Shown: piece by piece, positions 1 through 8,169 of the stretch
How the letters are laid out: each line of letters opens with the position of its first letter
Position numbering within the stretch: the stretch's first letter is position 1
Source of the DNA: an uncultured Frankineae bacterium
GTDB taxonomy: Bacteria; Actinomycetota; Actinomycetes; Mycobacteriales; SCTD01
Assembly: GCA_902805805.1 (NCBI GenBank)
Contig: CADCUE010000247.1
Location: forward strand, 1 to 25,577
Reading direction: 5' to 3'
Length of the DNA stretch: 25,577 bases
Made by a program: the position numbers and the translations under genes
The notes under the pieces: generated by a model
What the model was told of the DNA's origin: nothing
The model's database searches: none
Seen by the model: the letters and a program-made list of their open reading frames with translations, nothing else

Positions 1-18
1 ATGGCCCGCGACCCACGG

Positions 19-74
19 GCCGCGGCCACCGCCCACCGTGCCGCGGCCACCGCCCACCGTGCCGCGGCCACCGC
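19..74. repeat. 21-nt tandem repeat, about 2.7 copies
   Basis: The unit starts GCCGCGGCCACCGCC and ends CACCGT. Copies occupy 19-39 and 40-60, with a partial third copy at 61-74, and no mismatch between the two full copies. The period is a multiple of three, so if translated it would give a repeated Ala-Ala-Ala-Thr-Ala-His-Arg. There is no other sign that it is coding. Confidence 0.85.
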
Positions 75-112
75 GCCAGCCAGGACGCCGGACCTCATAG
101 ACACACCGCTGG

Positions 113-168
113 CAAGATCTTCAGAACATCCCCAGCAGCCTGGTGCTGGGGATGTCCCGAAGATCTTG
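113..168. repeat. Long palindrome, copy 1 of a three-member family
   Basis: Both arms are about 27 nt: CAAGATCTTC leads the left arm and GAAGATCTTG ends the right arm, with a CCCCAGC/GCTGGGG core. Three arm positions do not pair (A/C at two places and one near the tip). Compared with copy 3, the GATCCCC core has become CATCCCC and the opposite arm GGGGATG, so that base pair is kept although both bases changed. It could be a terminator or a REP-like element. Confidence 0.85.
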
Positions 169-340
169 GGCCGCCCGGCGCGACGGAAGCGCCGAGCGTC
201 GGGCGACGTGCCGAACGGCTCGCACGCCCTCCAGCCGCCCTCACGGGGAGCAGTCCGGCCGACGCGCCAGCCGACCGGCGCGGCACGATCCAGCCGCACG
301 CAGCAGTCGCCGGACAGCCCTTCGGCTCACCCGCGCCCCC

Positions 341-394
341 GAGGTCTTCGAAGGATCCCCAGCACCCGAGTGCTGTGGATCTTCGGAAGATCTC
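341..394. repeat. Long palindrome, copy 2, just downstream of larA
   Basis: Two 25-nt arms (341-365 and 370-394) surround a CCGA loop. About five positions mismatch, so this is the most decayed copy. It shares the GGATCCCCAGCAC core and the TCTTCGGAAGATCT right arm with copy 3. It begins 20 nt beyond the larA stop codon on the minus strand, the position expected for a transcription terminator or a 3'-end stabilising hairpin of that gene. No U-tract follows it. Confidence 0.8.
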
Positions 395-413
395 GAGCCT
401 CCTGCGCTCCGCG

Positions 414-1688
414 TCAGACGATGTACGGGATCGTCTGCGGGCCCTCGGGCAGCACGCAGACGCGGGCGTCCGGGCCGGCACTGCCCAGCGCCCGGTCGAC
501 GGCCTCGGCGAGATCGGGCACCGGCTCGAGGTGCGCCGCGCGCAGATCGTCCTCGGACAGGAACCCCGAGTGGACGCCCACCCGCGCCTTGATCTGGATC
601 TTGGCCTGGACCTGGACCTGCCACTGGTCCGGCACCGTCGCGTCCCGCGCCGAGATCTCGTCGAACAGCGCCTGGGGCGAGGCTGCAGAGGCCAGCACCT
701 CGCGGTAGGACCCGTGGTCCGGGAAGCCGTCCCGGCACTCGGCTGCGCACAGGATGAGGCCGCCGGGACGCACGACGGTCGCCGCGGCCGACATGCCCTT
801 GACGGCCTGGTAGAGGTTCTGGTCGAGCGGATGGCCGGCGTTGGTCGTGAGCACCACCTCGAACTCCCCCGGTACGGGCGCCATCGCGAGGCCGCGTGAG
901 CGCTCCCGGGCCTGCTCGTGCATGGCCAGCAGGTCGCCGCCGAACGCGGCCACGATGCCCTGCTCCCGGTTGAGGACGACGTCGAGCGCGAAGTCGCACC
1001 CGGTCGACATGGCGGCGGCACGGATGTCGTCGTGCACGGGGTTGCCGTCGCAGACGCCCCAGCGGGCGTCCGGGTGGCCGATGCGCTGGGCGTCGTGCAG
1101 GACGAGGACGGTGTCGAGCCCCGCGAGGCCCGGCGTGACCATCTTCGGCCCGCCGGAGAACCCTGCGAAGAAGTGCGGCTCGACGAAGCCGGTGGTGATC
1201 CGGACGTCCGCCTGCACCCACTCGCTGCACAGCCAGACCGGGACGCCGTTGCCGAAGGTGCCCATCCACGTGAGGGTGCTGTCGTCCCGGGCATCGTGGT
1301 TGACGACCCGGACACTGTCCACGATCTCGTCCCCGAGCATCGCGCGCAGCTCGGATCCGGTGTTGACGCGGTGCGTGCCGGTGGCGACGAGCACGACGAC
1401 GTCCTCGAGGCGCACGAGCCCGTCGAGCTCGTCGAGCACGGCCCTCACCATGAGCTCGCGCGGCTGCGGCCGGGTGGCGTCGCAGACGGAGATCGCCACG
1501 GTCTGGCCGGCGCCGACCCGCTGGCGCAGCGGAGGACCCGCCACCGGATTGCGGAGCGCCTGCTGCAGCACGCGAGGCGGGTCGTCGACGGTCGGCTCCC
1601 AGCGCGGCTCGACGACCGTCGTACGGGACTCGGGCAGGTCCACCGTCAGACCGCTCGTGCCGTAGGCCAGGTGCACCTCTCGCGTCAT
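414..1688 (-). CDS. larA: Nickel-dependent lactate racemase homologue (LarA family, DUF2088)
   Basis: This 424-residue cytoplasmic protein matches LarA, which racemises D/L-lactate or a related 2-hydroxyacid using a nickel-pincer nucleotide (NPN) cofactor. The signature residues are visible: D70 and R73 in CDATRP, H106 in GTHR, H172 and K182 in PHFFAGFSGGPK, and H198. All are offset by exactly two from D72, R75, H108, H174, K184 and H200 of the Lactobacillus plantarum enzyme, where Lys184 anchors the cofactor. The ATG at 1688 is chosen because upstream frame sequence is non-protein-like and runs through the palindrome at 1799-1854. A possible -10 (TACGGT, 1724-1719) lies 30 nt upstream. No larB, larC or larE cofactor genes are in the window. 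Several LarA homologues act on other hydroxyacids, so the substrate is open. Confidence 0.88.
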   Translation of the reverse strand: MTREVHLAYGTSGLTVDLPESRTTVVEPRWEPTVDDPPRVLQQALRNPVAGPPLRQRVGAGQTVAISVCDATRPQPRELMVRAVLDELDGLVRLEDVVVLVATGTHRVNTGSELRAMLGDEIVDSVRVVNHDARDDSTLTWMGTFGNGVPVWLCSEWVQADVRITTGFVEPHFFAGFSGGPKMVTPGLAGLDTVLVLHDAQRIGHPDARWGVCDGNPVHDDIRAAAMSTGCDFALDVVLNREQGIVAAFGGDLLAMHEQARERSRGLAMAPVPGEFEVVLTTNAGHPLDQNLYQAVKGMSAAATVVRPGGLILCAAECRDGFPDHGSYREVLASAASPQALFDEISARDATVPDQWQVQVQAKIQIKARVGVHSGFLSEDDLRAAHLEPVPDLAEAVDRALGSAGPDARVCVLPEGPQTIPYIV

Positions 1689-1798
1689 GCCCGTACGCCC
1701 TCCGGCTCGCCGACCTCGACCGTAGGCCCAGGTGACCGCACCGGCGCATCCACCCCGCGGTCGAGCTGGCGCGCCGACCCGGCCCGCTCCCCGACCCG

Positions 1799-1854
1799 CA
1801 AGATCTTCCGAAGATCCCCAGCACCCTGGTGCTGGGGATCTTCGGAAGATCTTG
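1799..1854. repeat. Perfect 27-bp-arm palindrome, copy 3
   Basis: Left arm 1799-1825 and right arm 1828-1854 are exact reverse complements separated only by CT. The arm begins CAAGATCTTCCGAAGATCCC and closes on CAGCACC. It is the intact member of the family also found at 113-168 and 341-394. It lies 75 nt downstream of the proline-rich gene stop and upstream of larA, both on the minus strand. Possible roles are a bidirectional terminator or a REP/MITE-like element. A protein-binding operator is also possible. Confidence 0.93.
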
Positions 1855-1929
1855 GAGAGGGCGAGCCAGCACGCGACGGCGGGCGCCGCGTCGATCACCC
1901 TTGCGCCCGCGGCACCCGCCGGACGCCGG

Positions 1930-2055
1930 TCAGGCGGGCGTCGGCTCGATCGGCTGCGGGTCCGTCGGGCCCGGTCCGGGCAGGATCGGCTCGACGGGTG
2001 TGACGGGGTCCGGCGGCAGCGGATCGGGCTCCGGGAAGGGCGTCGGCAGCGTCAT
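1930..2055 (-). CDS. 41-residue proline-rich small protein
   Basis: This very short acidic protein has 17 prolines in 41 residues, arranged as repeated P-x-P and D-P-x-P units, with no Cys and no membrane segment. The start is supported by an AGGAG 10 nt upstream of ATG and by only 16 nt separating it from the DUF1918 gene before it, so the two are probably one transcript. I do not recognise a family. It may be an extended, disordered peptide. A perfect palindrome lies 75 nt beyond its stop. Confidence 0.6.
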   Translation of the reverse strand: MTLPTPFPEPDPLPPDPVTPVEPILPGPGPTDPQPIEPTPA

Positions 2056-2071
2056 GTCCTGCTCCTGTCCG

Positions 2072-2263
2072 TCACGACGAGCTGGGCTGGTCGACCCTGG
2101 CCTCCGGACCCGGGCTGCAGACGCCCTCGTGCCCGTCGTCCCAGCGCACGACGTAGAGCGGCGCGTCCTCGCTCCCGCGGACGGCCGTGACCTCGCCCTC
2201 GCGGGACGCGTCGCCGACGTGGCGCCCCGGGACGCGGATGCGATCACCGACAGTGGCTCTCAT
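2072..2263 (-). CDS. DUF1918 domain protein
   Basis: The 63-residue protein matches the actinobacterial DUF1918 pattern: MRATVGDRI at the N-terminus, PGRHVGDASREGEV around residues 12-25, then YVVRWDDGHEGVCSPGP at 37-53. These are single-domain, SH3-like small beta-barrel proteins of unknown function, often found near stress genes. GGAGG sits 5 nt before the ATG. It is divergent from hsp20 and shares the 177-bp intergenic region with it. Confidence 0.88.
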   Translation of the reverse strand: MRATVGDRIRVPGRHVGDASREGEVTAVRGSEDAPLYVVRWDDGHEGVCSPGPEARVDQPSSS

Positions 2264-2346
2264 GGTGGCCTCCGACCTCTCGTCCTGCGCTCCAGCCTCC
2301 TCCTCGCTGCCCTGCAGGGCAATGCCCCCGGGCACCGTCCAGGACT

Positions 2347-2374
2347 TGCATCTCGACATGCAGGTTTGCTGCAT
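2347..2374. promoter_or_regulatory. Candidate operator: three phased TGCAT half-sites
   Basis: TGCAT (2347-2351), ATGCA (2358-2362) and TGCAT (2370-2374) alternate in orientation with 11- and 12-nt centre spacing, about one helical turn. The right pair forms ATGCAG-N5-CTGCAT. The array lies 67 nt before hsp20 in the region shared with the divergent DUF1918 gene. It differs from the known HspR HAIR element (CTTGAGT-N7-ACTCAAG). That the downstream MerR-type protein binds it is inference. Confidence 0.45.
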
Positions 2375-2440
2375 CCGACGCACGGGCAGTCTGCGTGTGG
2401 AGTCGCAGGGACTCCCCCGTTGCTGGAGGTGGTTCTCGTG

Positions 2441-2920
2441 ATGATGCGGTTCGACCCGTTCCGGGACCTCGACCGCCTGGCTGACCAGCTGACCAGCGGC
2501 GTACGCACGCCGCGCATGGCGCCGATGGACGTCTACCGGCTGGGCGACCACTACGTCGTCCACCTGGACCTGCCGGGCGTGGACCCGGGCAGCGTCGACC
2601 TGTCGGTGGAGGACAACACGCTCACGGTGCGCGCGCACCGCACGACCCGTCCGCAGGGCGAGGACATGCAGGTGCTCGTGGCCGAGCGGCCCGCGGGCGA
2701 GGTGTCCCGCCAGCTCCTGCTCGGCGAGGGCCTCGACGTCGAGCGCATCGAGGCGACGTACGAGCAGGGCGTCCTGACCCTCCACGTCCCCGTCGCCGAG
2801 CGTGCCAAGCCGCGGAAGATCACGGTCTCGCTGGGCGGCCACGAGCAGGGGCCGGAGGTCATCGAGGGCAGCACGAAGTCGCCGCAGACGGCCGTCGGCT
2901 CCGGCACGAGCACGAGCTGA
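2441..2920 (+). CDS. Hsp20/alpha-crystallin small heat-shock protein
   Basis: The 159-residue protein is an ATP-independent holdase that binds unfolding proteins during heat or other stress. The alpha-crystallin domain spans about residues 27-120: it opens with MDVYRLGDHYVVHLDLPGVD and ends with the family's GVLTL motif (110-114) followed by HVP. The C-terminus lacks a clear I-x-I tail. GGAGG at 2425-2429 precedes GTG 2438, ATG 2441 and ATG 2444. I chose 2441, which gives MMRFDPF, the usual actinobacterial Hsp18/Hsp20 beginning. The HspR-like gene follows after 4 nt, so the two are co-transcribed and the pair is probably autoregulated. Confidence 0.93.
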   Translation: MMRFDPFRDLDRLADQLTSGVRTPRMAPMDVYRLGDHYVVHLDLPGVDPGSVDLSVEDNTLTVRAHRTTRPQGEDMQVLVAERPAGEVSRQLLLGEGLDVERIEATYEQGVLTLHVPVAERAKPRKITVSLGGHEQGPEVIEGSTKSPQTAVGSGTSTS

Positions 2921-2924
2921 CGCC

Positions 2925-3377
2925 ATGACGGGCACCTCGTCCCGGGCGGGGGACACCGGCCCGGGCGGGGTGCCCCGCACGTCCCCCGAGGCCCTGCCCC
3001 TGAGCCAGTCCCTGCCCCTGCCCCTCGGCCACCCGCAGACCGCACCCGTCACCACGGCCCGCGGACCTGCTCCGGAGGGCCCCTGGTCCGACCCGGACGC
3101 CGCCTTCTACACGGTCGGGCAGGTCGGCGACCTGCTCGGCGTCCCCGCGGCGACGCTGCGCCGCTTCGACGTCACCGGAGCCGTGCGGCCGGCCCGCTCC
3201 ACCGGCGGCCAGCGCCGCTACAGCCACCGCCAGCTCGAGCACGCCCGCCGGCTGCTCCGGCTCGTGGACGAGGGCCTGACCCTGGCGGCGGCCACCCGGG
3301 TGGCCGACCTGGAGGACACGGTGGCCGACCTGCGGCAGCAGCTGTCCGACACCCGGAGCGACGACGGCGCGGACTGA
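2925..3377 (+). CDS. HspR-like MerR-family regulator
   Basis: The 150-residue DNA-binding protein has a long disordered Pro-rich N-terminus (1-58), then a MerR winged helix-turn-helix (about 61-100: FYTVGQVGDLLGVPAATLRRFD, then GGQRRYS). A predicted coiled coil (about 127-143, LEDTVADLRQQL) ends it. The TLRRFD...RPARSTGGQRRYS stretch resembles HspR, the heat-shock repressor that binds HAIR sites. It lacks the Cys residues expected of metal-sensing MerR members. It starts 4 nt after hsp20, which makes it a likely local regulator of that gene. It is convergent with the sugar-transporter operon. Confidence 0.85.
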   Translation: MTGTSSRAGDTGPGGVPRTSPEALPLSQSLPLPLGHPQTAPVTTARGPAPEGPWSDPDAAFYTVGQVGDLLGVPAATLRRFDVTGAVRPARSTGGQRRYSHRQLEHARRLLRLVDEGLTLAAATRVADLEDTVADLRQQLSDTRSDDGAD

Positions 3378-3396
3378 GCTGAGCGCGCCCGCCCGG

Positions 3397-4257
3397 TCAG
3401 CCCTTGACCGCGCCGGAGACCAGGCCCTGGGTGACCTGCTTCTGCATCGCCACGAACAGCACGACGACCGGCAGGATGGTGATCAGGGTGCCGGCCGCGA
3501 GCGGCCCGATGTCGATCGACCGCCCGCCGAGGAACAGGTAGAGCCCGGTCGTCAGCGGCCGGTAGTCGCCGCCCGGCATGTAGAGCAGCGGGACGAGGAA
3601 GTTGTTCCAGTTCTGCAGGAACGTGAAGACGGCCAGCGCCCCGATGCCCGAGGTCACCAGGGGCAGCATCACCTTGGTGAAGATCTGCCACTCCGAGGCG
3701 CCGTCCATCCGGGCCGCCTGCGCGAGCTCGACCGGCAGGTCGGAGAAGAACGCGCGCATGAAGAACGTGCCGAACGAGACGCCCGTGCTGGCCAGGACCA
3801 GGTTGACCCCCACGAGGCTGTCCAGCATGCCCATCCCCCGCAGCTGGAAGTACAGCGGGATCATGTAGGTGAAGAACGGCACCAGCAGACCGACGACCAC
3901 GACGTAGAACGCGAGGTCGCGACCCGGGAACGGCAGCCGCGCGAAGGCGTAGCCGCCCATGGTCGACAGGGCCAGCACGAGCAGCGTGCTGGGGACCGTC
4001 AGCAGCAGGCTGTTGAGGACGTAGCCGCCGAAGCCGCCGACCGTCCAGGCCGTGACGATGTTCTCCGTCGAGAACGACGAGAACAGGCCGAACGGGTTCA
4101 CCTGGACGTCCTGCTCGGTCTTGAGCGCGGTGGAGACGGTCAGGACCAGCGGGAAGAGCATGAGCAGCGACAGCGCGATCAGCAGCCCGTGCTTGCCCGC
4201 CAGGCGGACGCGGGCCCGGGGCGTCATCCGGGCCTGCAGCGGGGCCGTCGTGGCCAT
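3397..4257 (-). CDS. Sugar ABC transporter permease, MalG type (CUT1)
   Basis: The 286-residue inner-membrane protein has about six transmembrane segments. The first is near residues 25-46, and the C-terminus ends QGLVSGAVKG, as is typical of MalG-like subunits. The EAA loop that docks to the ATPase is seen as AQAARMDGASEWQIFTKVMLP. Its start ATG overlaps the stop of the preceding permease (TGATG), a translationally coupled arrangement. It forms the heterodimeric channel with that permease. No ATPase gene is nearby, so a shared MsiK-type ATPase is likely. Confidence 0.93.
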   Translation of the reverse strand: MATTAPLQARMTPRARVRLAGKHGLLIALSLLMLFPLVLTVSTALKTEQDVQVNPFGLFSSFSTENIVTAWTVGGFGGYVLNSLLLTVPSTLLVLALSTMGGYAFARLPFPGRDLAFYVVVVGLLVPFFTYMIPLYFQLRGMGMLDSLVGVNLVLASTGVSFGTFFMRAFFSDLPVELAQAARMDGASEWQIFTKVMLPLVTSGIGALAVFTFLQNWNNFLVPLLYMPGGDYRPLTTGLYLFLGGRSIDIGPLAAGTLITILPVVVLFVAMQKQVTQGLVSGAVKG

Positions 4258-5144
4258 CAGCTCATCCCCTCGAGCGACACCCGGCGCTGCAGCCTGTTCA
4301 GCCACACGGCGAACGGGATGGCCAGCATCGTGATGACCAGCGCGAGCGCTGTTCCGTAGCTGATGCGGTTGAGCTGGAAGGCGCTGCTGTAGGCGAGCGT
4401 GCCCAGGACCTCCGAGGCGCCGGCGGGACCGCCGCCGGTCATCACGAAGATGATGTCGAAGACGCTGAAGCCGCCCAGCAGCGTGATGGTCGTGACCATG
4501 AGGAACACCGGCATGATCTGCGGCAGCACGATGTGGATCAGCCGCTGCCAGCCGTTGGCGCCGTCGAGGCGGGCGGCGTCCACGATGTCCATGTCGACGC
4601 CCTTGAGCGCCGACAGGAAGATCACGAAGACGAACCCCAGCGTGACCCAGACCGCGGTGGCGAGCACGGCGTACAGGGCCGTGTCGGGGTTGCCGAGCCA
4701 GCCGGTCGCAAGGGCGTCGAGCCCGACCGTCTCGAGCACCTTGTTGAGCCAGCCGCGCGACGGCTCGTAGATCCAGCCCCACACGACGCCGACCGCCACC
4801 TGCGGCAGGATGTAGGGCAGGAAGAAGGCGACCCGGTAGAAGACGCTGCCGCGCTGCACGTGCCACAGCAGCAGCGCCAGGGCGAGCCCCAGGACGAGCG
4901 GGCCGACAGTGCCCAGGACGATCCAGATGATGTTGTTCGAGAAGGCCGCCCAGACGTCGGGGTCCTGCGCCAGCTCCGTGAAGTTCGCGAGGCCGACCCA
5001 GGGCGGGGCGGGGTCGATGCCGTTGAAGTCGACGAAGACGTAGTAGACGGCGTTGATCATCGGGAAGACCAGGAAGACGCCCACGAGCAGGAGCAGCGGG
5101 ACGACGAGCAGGACCCCGAGCCGTGCCTGCGCCTTGCGGGTCAC
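4257..5144 (-). CDS. Sugar ABC transporter permease, MalF type (CUT1), N-terminus possibly frameshifted
   Basis: As called (GTG at 5144) this is a 295-residue membrane protein with six predicted helices and an EAA loop (DAARLDGANGWQRLIHIVLP). It pairs with the MalG-type subunit, whose ATG overlaps its stop. The GTG at 5144 has no convincing ribosome-binding site. The frame stays open upstream and reads as a Pro/Ala-rich, then Arg-rich leader with high GC3. A better start exists at GTG 5272: it overlaps the binding-protein stop as GTGA and has GGAG-AAGG before it. It lies in another frame, and one extra G in the five-G run at 5248-5252 would join the two into a 338-residue protein. So either the start is 5144, or the gene or the sequence carries a one-base deletion. 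Confidence 0.85.
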   Translation of the reverse strand: MTRKAQARLGVLLVVPLLLLVGVFLVFPMINAVYYVFVDFNGIDPAPPWVGLANFTELAQDPDVWAAFSNNIIWIVLGTVGPLVLGLALALLLWHVQRGSVFYRVAFFLPYILPQVAVGVVWGWIYEPSRGWLNKVLETVGLDALATGWLGNPDTALYAVLATAVWVTLGFVFVIFLSALKGVDMDIVDAARLDGANGWQRLIHIVLPQIMPVFLMVTTITLLGGFSVFDIIFVMTGGGPAGASEVLGTLAYSSAFQLNRISYGTALALVITMLAIPFAVWLNRLQRRVSLEGMS

Positions 5145-5191
5145 CGCGGGGACCTGGGACCGGGCGGTGCCGCCCCGACGACGCGTCGGCG

Positions 5192-5239
5192 CCGGCGCGG
5201 GCGCCGGCGAGGCCGCCGCCCGGGCCGGCGCGGGCGCCG
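5192..5239. repeat. Two identical 15-nt GC hairpin sequences between binding protein and permease
   Basis: CCGGCGCGGGCGCCG occurs at 5192-5206 and 5225-5239, 33 nt apart. Each can form a short GGCGC/GCGCC hairpin. Hairpins in this position are known in sugar importers to raise binding-protein expression over permeases. In the permease frame both copies encode Ala-Pro runs, so they may instead be codon-level repeats in a leader peptide. Confidence 0.5.
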
Positions 5240-5268
5240 TCCCGCCGCCCCCTCTGCGCGGCTGCGGG

Positions 5269-6540
5269 TCACGCCTTCTCCGCCTCGAGGGCCTTCGCCA
5301 CCTCCTGCGGTGTCCGCTGACCGGTGAGCACGCCCTGGAAGCCGTCGAACATCGCCTCGTTGAAGGCGTCGCTCACCAGGACGTCGATGTTGAGGCCGAA
5401 GTCGCCGCCGCTGGAGAGCTCGGCGGTGTCCTCGAGCACCTGCGCGAACAGCGGCGAGACGTCCAGGCCCTCCGTCTCGACCTCCATCGGCGGGATGGTC
5501 GCGAGGTTCTCGACGACCCACTTGCCGTGCTCCGGGGAGGCGAGGAAGTCGAGGAACTCGATCGCCGCCTCCTCGTTCTTCGTCGTGGCGGAGACGTACG
5601 GCCCGGAGCCCAGGCCGCCGGTGAAGATGCCGGGGCCGTCGGGGGCCGGGAACGGGATGTAGCCGACCTCGAAGTCGGTGTTGTCCTCGATCTCGGCGAC
5701 CAGCCAGCTCCCCGTGGGGATCATCGCCGCGTCGCCGGAGTAGAACAGCGACGTCATCGTGTCGTAGTCCACCGAGGTCGGGGACTTGGGCAGGTAGCCC
5801 TTCTTGTTGTAGTCCTGCCACAGCTGCAGGGACTGGACGACCTCGGGCGAGGTCCAGGACTTCTCGCCGTCGAGCAGCGCCTGCATGCCGTCGCCGCCGA
5901 CCGCGCTCGACAGGGCCATGCTCAGCAGGTGTCCGCCCTCCCAGCCCTCCTTGTCGCCGACGGCCATCGGGGTCTTGCCGGCGGCCTTGATGGCCTCGCT
6001 GGCCGCCTGAAGGTCGTCCAGGCTCTTGGGCGCCTCGAGCCCGAGCTCGGAGAAGATGTCCTTGTTGTAGAACAGCCCGATGGTCTCGGCCTCGCCCGGC
6101 AGTCCGTAGACCTTGCCGTCCACGGTGACCCGCTCCTTGGCGAAGTCGAAGACCTTCCAGTCGTTCTCCTCGTAGGCGGCCGTCAGGTCCTTCACCAGGC
6201 CGGCCTCGGCGAGGGCGCCGCCGAAGCTCGGTCCGGAGCCCCAGGCGAACACGTCCGGGCCCTCGCCCGAGCGCAGCTGGGTCTGCAGGACGGTGCGCAT
6301 GGCGTCGAGCGGCAGGGTGTCGAGCTCGACCTCGATCCCGCTCTCCTTCGTGAACTCGCCGAGGTGCTCCTCGAGCGCCTTGTTGGCCTCGGCGTCCTCC
6401 TGCTCCTCGATGAGGTAGCGGATGGACTGCGCCCCGTCCCCGGATCCGCTGTCGTCGTCCGCCGGGGCAGCCCCCGTGCAGGCGGCCGCCAGCAGGCACG
6501 CCGTCGCGGCGACGGCGACGCGGGATCGTGAGTTGCGCAT
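5269..6540 (-). CDS. Sugar ABC transporter substrate-binding lipoprotein (family 1)
   Basis: This 423-residue extracytoplasmic lipoprotein captures a sugar for the two permeases encoded next. The signal peptide (1-20) ends in a lipobox with Cys21 (LAAAC), followed by an acidic Ser/Gly linker. The body has CUT1 binding-protein marks: GPDVFAWGSG, then YGLPGEAETIGLFYNKDIF and FYSGDAAMIPTGSW. ATG 6540 is chosen over an upstream ATG (6585) because it directly begins a basic signal peptide and is preceded by AAAGGG. A promoter candidate lies 54-82 nt upstream. The substrate cannot be read from sequence. No glycosidase is in this operon, so an alpha-glucan sugar is only a guess from the trehalose block 7 kb away. 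Confidence 0.92.
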   Translation of the reverse strand: MRNSRSRVAVAATACLLAAACTGAAPADDDSGSGDGAQSIRYLIEEQEDAEANKALEEHLGEFTKESGIEVELDTLPLDAMRTVLQTQLRSGEGPDVFAWGSGPSFGGALAEAGLVKDLTAAYEENDWKVFDFAKERVTVDGKVYGLPGEAETIGLFYNKDIFSELGLEAPKSLDDLQAASEAIKAAGKTPMAVGDKEGWEGGHLLSMALSSAVGGDGMQALLDGEKSWTSPEVVQSLQLWQDYNKKGYLPKSPTSVDYDTMTSLFYSGDAAMIPTGSWLVAEIEDNTDFEVGYIPFPAPDGPGIFTGGLGSGPYVSATTKNEEAAIEFLDFLASPEHGKWVVENLATIPPMEVETEGLDVSPLFAQVLEDTAELSSGGDFGLNIDVLVSDAFNEAMFDGFQGVLTGQRTPQEVAKALEAEKA

Positions 6541-6560
6541 GACAGCCCTTTGCTCGTGTT

Positions 6561-6575
6561 CCCGGCTGTGCCGGG
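6561..6575. other. Leader hairpin ahead of the sugar-binding protein gene
   Basis: CCCGGC-TGT-GCCGGG is an exact 6-bp stem with a 3-nt loop, 21 nt upstream of the binding-protein start. If transcription begins just after the candidate -10 at 6594-6599, it falls in the 5' leader and could stabilise the transcript or limit translation. Its role is inferred. Confidence 0.4.
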
Positions 6576-6593
6576 GATCCGGCAAGCCAGGTC

Positions 6594-6622
6594 ACGCTTC
6601 ACTGCGCAACCAGGGGTGTCAA
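6594..6622 (-). promoter_or_regulatory. Candidate promoter of the sugar importer operon
   Basis: On the minus strand a perfect TTGACA (6622-6617) is followed after exactly 17 nt by AAGCGT (6599-6594), a weak match to the TANNNT -10. It is the only consensus -35 in the 135-bp gap. Upstream of it GGAACGT is repeated directly 11 nt apart (6623-6629 and 6634-6640, plus strand), a possible regulator site. Confidence 0.45.
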
Positions 6623-6675
6623 GGAACGTCATCGGAACGTGACGCGAACACCGTGAGCGGCCTGTGGGCCGACGG

Positions 6676-7950
6676 TCAGGGCAGGTTGCGCAGCGCCACG
6701 TCCAGGCCACGGCGCGGGCTGCCGACACCGGTCACGGTGTCGAACCCGGTCGTCGCGGTGCAGACCGCACCGCAGGTGCCGTTGGTCCCGGTCACGATGT
6801 CGCCGAGGGCGCCGCTGCTGCGCAGGGCGCTGGAGTACAGGGCCGTGTGCAGGGGCGTGGCCCCTGTGGAGGTGACCGCGCTGAGCAGCGGCTTGCCCGC
6901 GGCCTTGCGCAGCTGGTGCGTGGCCGCCAGGATGCCCGCCCACTGCGGCGCTCCCGCACTGGTCCCGCCCATGACGAACCAGCCGGTCTGCCTCTCGTAG
7001 GGCGTGCTGCTGTAGACGGCGAAGCCGGTCGCCGGGTCGCCCGCGTACGACACGTCCGGCCCGGCCCGCCGCACGGCGTCCGTCACGCCGTTCTGGTACG
7101 CGGGCTTGGGGCTGTAGAGGCTGACGCCGCCACCCGAGCCCGACCACGCGGTCTCGGCGACCACCGCGCCTGCGGCGCCGAGCTCCAGCGACGTGCCGCC
7201 GACCGCGAGCGCCGCCGGGTTGCTCGCCGGGTACGACCCGGGGTTGCCGTCGTCCCCGGAGGCGAACACGCAGACGCCGGTCGTCAGCCGGCAGCGGTAG
7301 TCCTGGTCCTTCTGAGCGGCGAACTCCCCTGTCCCGAAGCTCCCGCTGACGACCGTCACCCCCGGCTGCTTCGACGCGTACCCGACCGCCGTCATGAGGT
7401 TGCCCATGGAGCTCGAGGTGGCCTCGACGAGCAGCAGTGCCGCGGCCGGGGCCACGGCGTGCGCCCACTGCACGTCCAGAGCGGCTTCGAGCGCCCACCC
7501 GCCGTCGACCGGCGGGTACTTGGTGCCGCCGGTCTGGTTGACCTTCTTGAACGACGGCGGCGCCGGGAGCCCGAACGTCGAGTTGAAGACAGCGAGGTCC
7601 TTGGCGATGTTGGGCGCGTCGTAGGCGGTGACGATGGCGATCGTCTGACCCGCGCCGGTGCCGGTGAGGCCGAGGTAGTCCCGGATCTGCGCCGGTGTGT
7701 AGCCGCTCGCCGAGGTGCTCGTCAGCAGCGGCTCGGCCTGCGGCGTGCGGCCGAGCACCTTCAGGCGCAGCGGGTGCCGGGCGTCGCTCGCTGCGCCGGC
7801 CTGCACGACCGGGACGAAGTCGGCGGTCGGCGCGGCCGAGGCGAGCTCCGCCGTCGCCGGGGCGGGAGCGAGCGGGCTGCCCGCGAGCAGCAGGGCCCCC
7901 ACGGCGACGGCGCCTGCACTGCGGAGGCGACGGAAGGCGAACGGCAGCAT
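6676..7950 (-). CDS. Secreted S53 (sedolisin) family peptidase, no prodomain
   Basis: The 424-residue serine-carboxyl peptidase would be exported by a Sec signal peptide (about 1-34, ending ATA). The sedolisin catalytic set is present: E155 and D159 in WALEAALDVQW, the oxyanion Asp233 in ASGDDG, and Ser331 in GGTSAGAP, where the family usually has SGTSA. The C-terminal DIVTG and TGFDTVTGVGSP stretches match the calcium site. The long N-terminal activation prodomain common in sedolisins is absent: only about 75 residues separate the signal peptide from the catalytic domain. ATG 7950 is preferred because it starts the signal peptide. The frame is open to 8070. It is divergent from a small secreted peptide gene. 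The substrate is unknown. Confidence 0.88.
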   Translation of the reverse strand: MLPFAFRRLRSAGAVAVGALLLAGSPLAPAPATAELASAAPTADFVPVVQAGAASDARHPLRLKVLGRTPQAEPLLTSTSASGYTPAQIRDYLGLTGTGAGQTIAIVTAYDAPNIAKDLAVFNSTFGLPAPPSFKKVNQTGGTKYPPVDGGWALEAALDVQWAHAVAPAAALLLVEATSSSMGNLMTAVGYASKQPGVTVVSGSFGTGEFAAQKDQDYRCRLTTGVCVFASGDDGNPGSYPASNPAALAVGGTSLELGAAGAVVAETAWSGSGGGVSLYSPKPAYQNGVTDAVRRAGPDVSYAGDPATGFAVYSSTPYERQTGWFVMGGTSAGAPQWAGILAATHQLRKAAGKPLLSAVTSTGATPLHTALYSSALRSSGALGDIVTGTNGTCGAVCTATTGFDTVTGVGSPRRGLDVALRNLP

Positions 7951-8169
7951 GTCGAGGACGTCCTTCGATGGAGGGAGCACCTGGTTCGCCGGCCGAGAGG
8001 CGTGGGCCGAACTGGCACGAGAAGGGGCGTACGGTCTCTCCTCGGCAACGAAGTGTGTCGACTTAATCACCCGAAGTGACCATTGTCCGGGGGAGCTGCG
8101 TCGGCGACGCTGATCTCCTGGCGCTCCTCCCCCTCGCCGCGAGCGTCCCCGTCACTGGAAGAAGGACCC

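Follow-up and report, generated by a model that had tools for sequence, protein, structure and literature searches.

A dispersed, REP-like palindrome family found mainly at gene 3' ends in an uncultured actinobacterial lineage

Three long, related palindromes surround a lactate racemase gene in the window, the whole 25,577-nucleotide stretch of DNA analyzed here, and raise the question of what such sequences do at gene ends. A preliminary description of the window considered terminators, a REP/MITE family or target sites of an unknown protein.

Three palindromes around larA

The features concerned are as follows.
113..168, no strand assigned: palindrome copy 1, 56 nt, with imperfect arms; pattern and R1 matches
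341..394, no strand assigned: palindrome copy 2, the most diverged, 19 nt past the larA stop; pattern and R1 matches
414..1688, minus strand: larA, nickel-dependent lactate racemase family, between copies 2 and 3 (Pfam Lar_N 8.5e-53, LarA_C 3.5e-34)
1799..1854, no strand assigned: palindrome copy 3, exact 27-nt arms around a 2-nt centre; fold, pattern and R1 matches
1930..2055, minus strand: 41-aa proline-rich ORF, no Pfam match, upstream of copy 3 in the minus-strand direction
2072..2263, minus strand: DUF1918 gene (PF08940, 1.4e-22), same direction as the proline-rich ORF

The three palindromes lie where the preliminary description placed them and form one family. A single pattern, CTTC N5 ATC N2 CAGCA N6 TGCTG N2 GAT N5 GAAG, has 3 exact matches in the 25,577 bases and a maximum count of 0 in 100 shuffles of the window. 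The covariance model R1, for which 30 copies from eight genomes, the window included, were aligned without gaps, recovers the same three places and no others, and a pattern search with 3 mismatches agrees, so that the rest of the window is indeed free of further copies. Copy 3 is, as first described, an exact inverted repeat, its 27-nt arms being 100% complementary around the 2-nt centre. The ends and core said to be shared by all three are less uniform: one pattern matches every copy, but copy 2 reads CGAGGTCTTC ... GAAGATCTCG at its ends and lacks the CAAGATCTTC end, and the left arm of copy 1 reads CCCCAGCAG. Placement after minus-strand stop codons holds for both copies concerned: copy 3 lies 75 nt beyond the 1930 end of the proline-rich ORF, and copy 2 ends 19 nt, not 20, from the larA stop codon at 414. 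RNA folding of the six strands of the three copies gave z-scores from -3.99 to -11.93, with no shuffle as good; copy 1 folds to -44.9 kcal/mol on the minus strand versus -37.8 on the plus strand, and copy 2 to -33.8 on the plus strand versus -27.3 on the minus strand. Rfam yielded no match at gathering score in window 1-3000 (five miRNA-precursor matches scored 24.4-28.8 bits against cut-offs of 76-100), and one exact pattern had 0 matches in viral contigs. Directly before copy 1, at window 12-74, a 21-bp unit occurs three times head-to-tail.

Judging by their spacing, the DUF1918 gene and the proline-rich ORF are presumably co-transcribed. The latter is probably a real gene, since a similar C-terminus, also rich in proline, is encoded at the orthologous place of a close relative, G002. 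Pieces of G002 match window 1686-1725, 1929-2054, 2344-2873 and 3081-4427 in the same order, and the gap between the first two measures 53 bp in G002 versus 203 bp in the window, where it contains copy 3. Copy 3 is thus missing from the orthologous intergenic stretch of G002, although the exact empty site was not recovered, the flanks of copy 3 having no alignable counterpart in that genome. At the place of larA, G002 has a different gene, the protein start of which resembles a short-chain dehydrogenase by eye; a search for LarA was negative in G002 and, over 41 genomes, gave matches in 5, all of them distant (29-40% identity). The 40 bp at window 1686-1725, covering the larA start and leader, are 90% identical to the leader of that different gene at the same place (L288, G002:C53:22331-22370), which looks as though the leader stayed and the gene following it was swapped. 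In the same locus of G002 (L288 compared with window 1930-2263), the DUF1918 gene is mostly missing and its first codons fuse with the proline-rich ORF into one short protein.

A dispersed, patchy family with genome dialects

Across genome contigs, the exact pattern was found in one record, the MAG Mycobacteriales bacterium isolate YX3bin30 (G001). In that genome, when up to 2 mismatches are allowed, the core pattern occurs at 18 places, 14 of them family-like by eye, and a reversed control pattern at 0 places. A shorter core pattern matched in 9 genomes among 150 relatives of G001; single matches in G044 and G047 look like chance and were set aside. Searching G001 and its relatives with R1 at E <= 0.01 under stricter filters gave matches in 17 of 61 genomes. 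Match counts cover both strands, so places number about half: 54 matches in G003 (~27 places), 42 in G017 (~21), 36 in G001 (~18), 28 in G007 (~14) and 26 in G005 (~13), with 1-9 matches each in G004 (14 under laxer filters), G006, G009, G010, G011, G016, G018, G019, G022, G023, G024 and G039. The preliminary description had made a mobile-family role depend on copies elsewhere in the genome; such copies exist in relatives, and the repeat-family reading therefore survives.

The family is patchy. By TreY identity to the window, compared over 26 genomes, G002 is closest (87%), followed by G006 (82%), G008 (81%), G005 (80%), G003 and G007 (78%), G017 (77%), G019 (74%), and G001, G004, G009 and G011 (73%); yet the near relatives G002 and G008 have neither an R1 match nor a match to the outer-end pattern. 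R1 likewise found nothing at E <= 1 in 589,540 bases of G002, G006, G008, G013 and G014. In an even, class-wide sample of 394 genomes searched at E <= 0.001, R1 matched 11, G001 strongly and ten weakly. Nine of the weak matches were inspected by eye and rejected as family members, having the look of ordinary GC-rich terminators.

Several observations adjoin this survey. Hairpins on GGATCCCCGGCACC-like arms, resembling the family core, were seen in other actinobacteria, namely G351, G515, G304 and G210 (L163-L165, L168). Copies of G003 in L103:1510-2194 and L112:1510-2195 lie inside a larger non-coding mosaic repeat with further inverted repeats (87% identity over 707 bp). Contigs C5 and C8 of G001 (L049, L095) are 82% identical over 2.2 kb and carry one palindrome each, a likeness that reflects either duplication or mixed strains.

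The stems are paired and vary by genome. Pairing holds for 80.1% of stem cells in the 30 aligned copies; shuffles give 71.8 +/- 1.0, and sliding the arms never gives more than 46.7%. Changes on both sides affect 77 cells, compared with 39.1 +/- 5.2 in shuffles, but when stem pairs with at least one double change are counted, the total of 16 does not exceed that of shuffles (14.4; a total of 16 is reached by 116 of 500). The stem reads CAAGATCTTCGGAACATCCACAGG in G003, CAAGATCTTCGGGGAGTTCACAGGG in G004, CCTTTGTGGAACTTCCACAGCA in G017 and CTCTGGGTGATGTCCCCAGCA in G007. Outer-stem likeness between copies at orthologous sites (12 pairs, group G omitted) is 0.25-0.75, much the same as for copies drawn at random from the two genomes (0.28-0.74), and mean likeness to copies of the same genome is mostly higher (0.45-0.84, with one at 0.25). 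Counter to a full switch of dialect, the G010 and G018 copies of group G are alike.

The conserved ends read CAAGATCTTC/GAAGATCTTG. Over six genomes and with spacings of 40-66 bp allowed, 31 of 32 places have their AAGATCTTC ends at a distance of 54 bp and one at 56 bp. A laxer count over 65 copies gave 54 bp in 44, 43 in 12 and 56 in one, with an end lost in 8; the 43-bp spacing is probably an inner repeat mistaken for a decayed end. Copies in G012 and G021 keep the ends and the length with different interiors, that of G021 being barely palindromic. These six copies are all intergenic, with a called 3' gene end at most 34 nt away in five cases and 80 nt away in the other. In G007, G009 and G017, by contrast, the ends diverge, the core is kept and the outer pairs change together. 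Sequence likeness drops at the stem ends in G001 and G017.

Bias to gene 3' ends and terminator-like features

For position relative to genes, 117 copies were fetched from 16 relatives and the window, including 17 of the ~18 places of G001, 24 of ~27 in G003 and 18 of ~21 in G017. Gene calls came from a codon-usage caller trained for this analysis (88.9% coding), tRNA calls from aragorn. Class counts exclude 8 copies that have no called gene on one side and 6 called inside genes, five of these being 33-169 bases from the gene end and one 664. The 103 classified copies lie in 46 convergent, 45 tandem and 12 divergent gaps, as compared with 8.2%, 54% and 37.5% in a control that measured where a 56-bp block would fit between genes in the window and in 12 stretches taken from G001 and G003 (265,577 bases, 109 gaps). 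The nearest gene end is a 3' end for 80 of the 103 (control 35%). Restricting the count to G001 and G003 leaves 15 of 37 copies convergent (p 8e-8). A 3' gene end lies within 50 nt of 60 of all 117 copies, and 19 of 29 tandem-gap copies are nearer the end of the upstream gene. The preliminary description had let a terminator role stand or fall with such a bias; given its strength, a terminator-like role survives. Some copies sit beside housekeeping genes (cysS, tsf). A 311-aa ORF beside cysS in G001 (L086:2195-3130, with a relative in L132 of G017), which has no Pfam match, is flanked by a palindrome on each side, as larA is.

Eight groups of sites have neighboring genes common to several genomes. 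Since a genome has only ~115 convergent gaps, full synteny would lead one to expect ~8 coincident convergent pairs, and the convergent groups A, F and H contain 8. For tandem gaps 0.95 coincident pairs are expected; strict tandem-tandem pairs number 1 in group B and 6, some of them weak matches, in the tsf group G. The remaining non-convergent groups involve copies that were called within the end of a gene or that lie at a contig edge. Old positions common to several genomes are therefore suggestive only.

As in terminators, the family offers a stable, GC-rich hairpin close after the stop codon. The block is followed by a mean of only 1.2 T per 10 nt (47 copies), and 0 terminator-like sites were predicted in window 1-8000; the exceptions are the tsf-site copies of G010 and G018, which have T-rich tails soon after a shorter stem. 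The T-run directly after the stem, a defining feature of canonical intrinsic terminators, is thus missing in general. Folding has no sense-strand advantage (21 versus 19 of 47 copies, p 0.96); an earlier lean in a subset of 31 copies (17 versus 9, p 0.12) disappeared with 47. Ten long palindromes were counted in 333 kb of G002, a genome free of family copies; 5 of them are in convergent gaps, including one that has more than 1 kb on both sides, and so symmetric hairpins seem to be usual at convergent gene ends in this group. U-tract-poor terminators occur in Streptomyces. The family resembles bidirectional actinobacterial hairpin terminators in its strong symmetric hairpin near stops and its enrichment in convergent gaps; ordinary terminators, however, need no common sequence, whereas here one sequence stands at many loci with a genome dialect.

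Explanations compared

We regard it as somewhat probable that the copies are a dispersed, REP-like palindrome family of an uncultured actinobacterial lineage that serves as a bidirectional hairpin terminator or mRNA-end cap. An inverted repeat of ~54-56 bp at a gene 3' end or between convergent genes, when transcribed from either side, would form a hairpin of ~20-27 bp that ends transcription, or caps and protects mRNA 3' ends, for transcripts of either strand, in most cases without the help of a U-tract. In the window, copy 3 would keep the DUF1918/proline-rich transcript apart from larA, whose own transcript would be closed off by copies 2 and 1. A copyable palindrome would thereby fill the place of the usual symmetric hairpin at convergent ends, and amplification and loss would turn the family over, so that each genome would come to have its own stem dialect. 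Termination or capping is what the position and structure of the copies point to, and we likewise infer the copying mechanism; we know of no enzyme that copies the family. Against this explanation count the near-identity of a 54-bp sequence across loci, which exceeds the need of a terminator, the barely palindromic interior in G021 with ends and length kept, the lack of a general T-run or a sense-strand advantage, and a number of double-change pairs at shuffle level.

The main rival, possible if rather doubtful, is a near-neutral mobile palindrome, a miniature element or REP/MITE in the broad sense, that is copied by an enzyme, affects transcripts at most incidentally and is tolerated only at gene ends, where it is proposed to accumulate because insertion elsewhere is harmful. 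It accords with the patchiness (none in G002 and G008, one place in G006, ~27 in G003 and ~18 in G001), with about twenty near-identical copies in G003, some within the larger mosaic repeat, with the fall of likeness at stem ends in G001 and G017, and with the G002 stretch that lacks copy 3. It accounts less well for the enrichment of convergent gaps far over tandem ones, the preference of tandem copies for the upstream gene's end and the double changes in paired stems; in addition, no target-site duplication was identified and the Y1 transposase is absent from the 12 carriers tested.

These last points bear on the REP comparison. The REP survey (PMC3733652) finds the GTAG/CGTC super-families preferentially downstream of genes, in convergent and unidirectional gaps, and gives stems of 5-13 bp (GTAG) or 8-9 bp (CGTC); the word 'actinobacteria' occurs 0 times in it. 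Like REP/BIME, as covered there, our family consists of dispersed, genome-specific intergenic palindromes, mainly downstream of genes. It differs in its stems (~20-27 bp versus 5-13), in its ~1-27 places per genome and in its actinobacterial host. No unpaired GTAG/CGTC tag was found in 79 copies inspected with flanks or in flank conservation over five genomes. The Y1/RAYT transposase (PF01797) is absent from 12 carriers among 27 genomes searched, a set excluding the window's own genome, G018, G019 and G021-G024; it is present in 2 of the 27 (G030, G034), both non-carriers, and in 5 of 14 control genomes. RAYT-driven REPs were thus rejected on the missing tag, the missing gene in tested carriers and the longer stems: of the REP/MITE proposal, the dispersed repeat family stands and the REP hallmarks do not.

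It is improbable that the palindromes are double-stranded DNA sites at which a specific protein (a chromosome organizer, insulator or recombinase) reads two inverted end motifs at fixed spacing. The 54-bp spacing of the AAGATCTTC ends at 31 of 32 places, the retention of ends and length in G012 and G021, and folding without strand preference would suit such sites, but the laxer count gives 54 bp in only 44 of 65 copies, the co-changing outer pairs of G007, G009 and G017 fit hairpin pairing better than independent half-sites, and no candidate protein is known. An integron attC-like recombination site, known by its folded strand and with larA as a captured gene, is very improbable: copies do come after stop codons, larA and the cysS-adjacent ORF of G001 and G017 each lie between two copies, and G002 has another gene where larA would be, but the copies are mostly single and scattered, several by housekeeping genes, rather than in arrays, and the attC end boxes, RYYYAAC/GTTRRRY, do not match the conserved ends CAAGATCTTC/GAAGATCTTG by inspection.

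For dialects at terminators, the nearest precedent is the DNA uptake sequence (DUS) of Neisseriaceae, inverted pairs of which act as terminators and differ in dialect between species, according to PMC3630211. Like DUS pairs as presented there, our family is one repeated sequence, with inverted pairs at gene ends and species dialects; unlike DUS, its single units are not abundant and its copies number only in the tens. Counts of arm words in 160 kb of G001 range from 0 to 13, near first-order expectation, and only AAGATCTT(C) exceeds it there (2-4 occurrences). A DUS-like uptake signal was rejected on this low abundance. No description of this palindrome family was found among titles and abstract openings, in a literature coverage mostly outside subscription journals.

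A further reading, to which we give little credence, holds that a dedicated factor, specific for sequence or structure, marks gene ends by recognizing the palindromes and co-evolves with them, and it is proposed that whole sets of sites would therefore switch dialect together, some at unchanged gene ends. If true, bacteria would have here a site-specific system for termination or insulation, spreading in the form of a repeat. With termination or mRNA capping as the preferred reading, the family adds an actinobacterial palindromic gene-end repeat without the hallmarks of the tested REP classes. Because relatives range from ~27 places to none, each carrier having its own stem, the lineage offers a natural setting in which to follow how dispersed palindromes multiply, become homogenized and come to occupy the place of a terminator.
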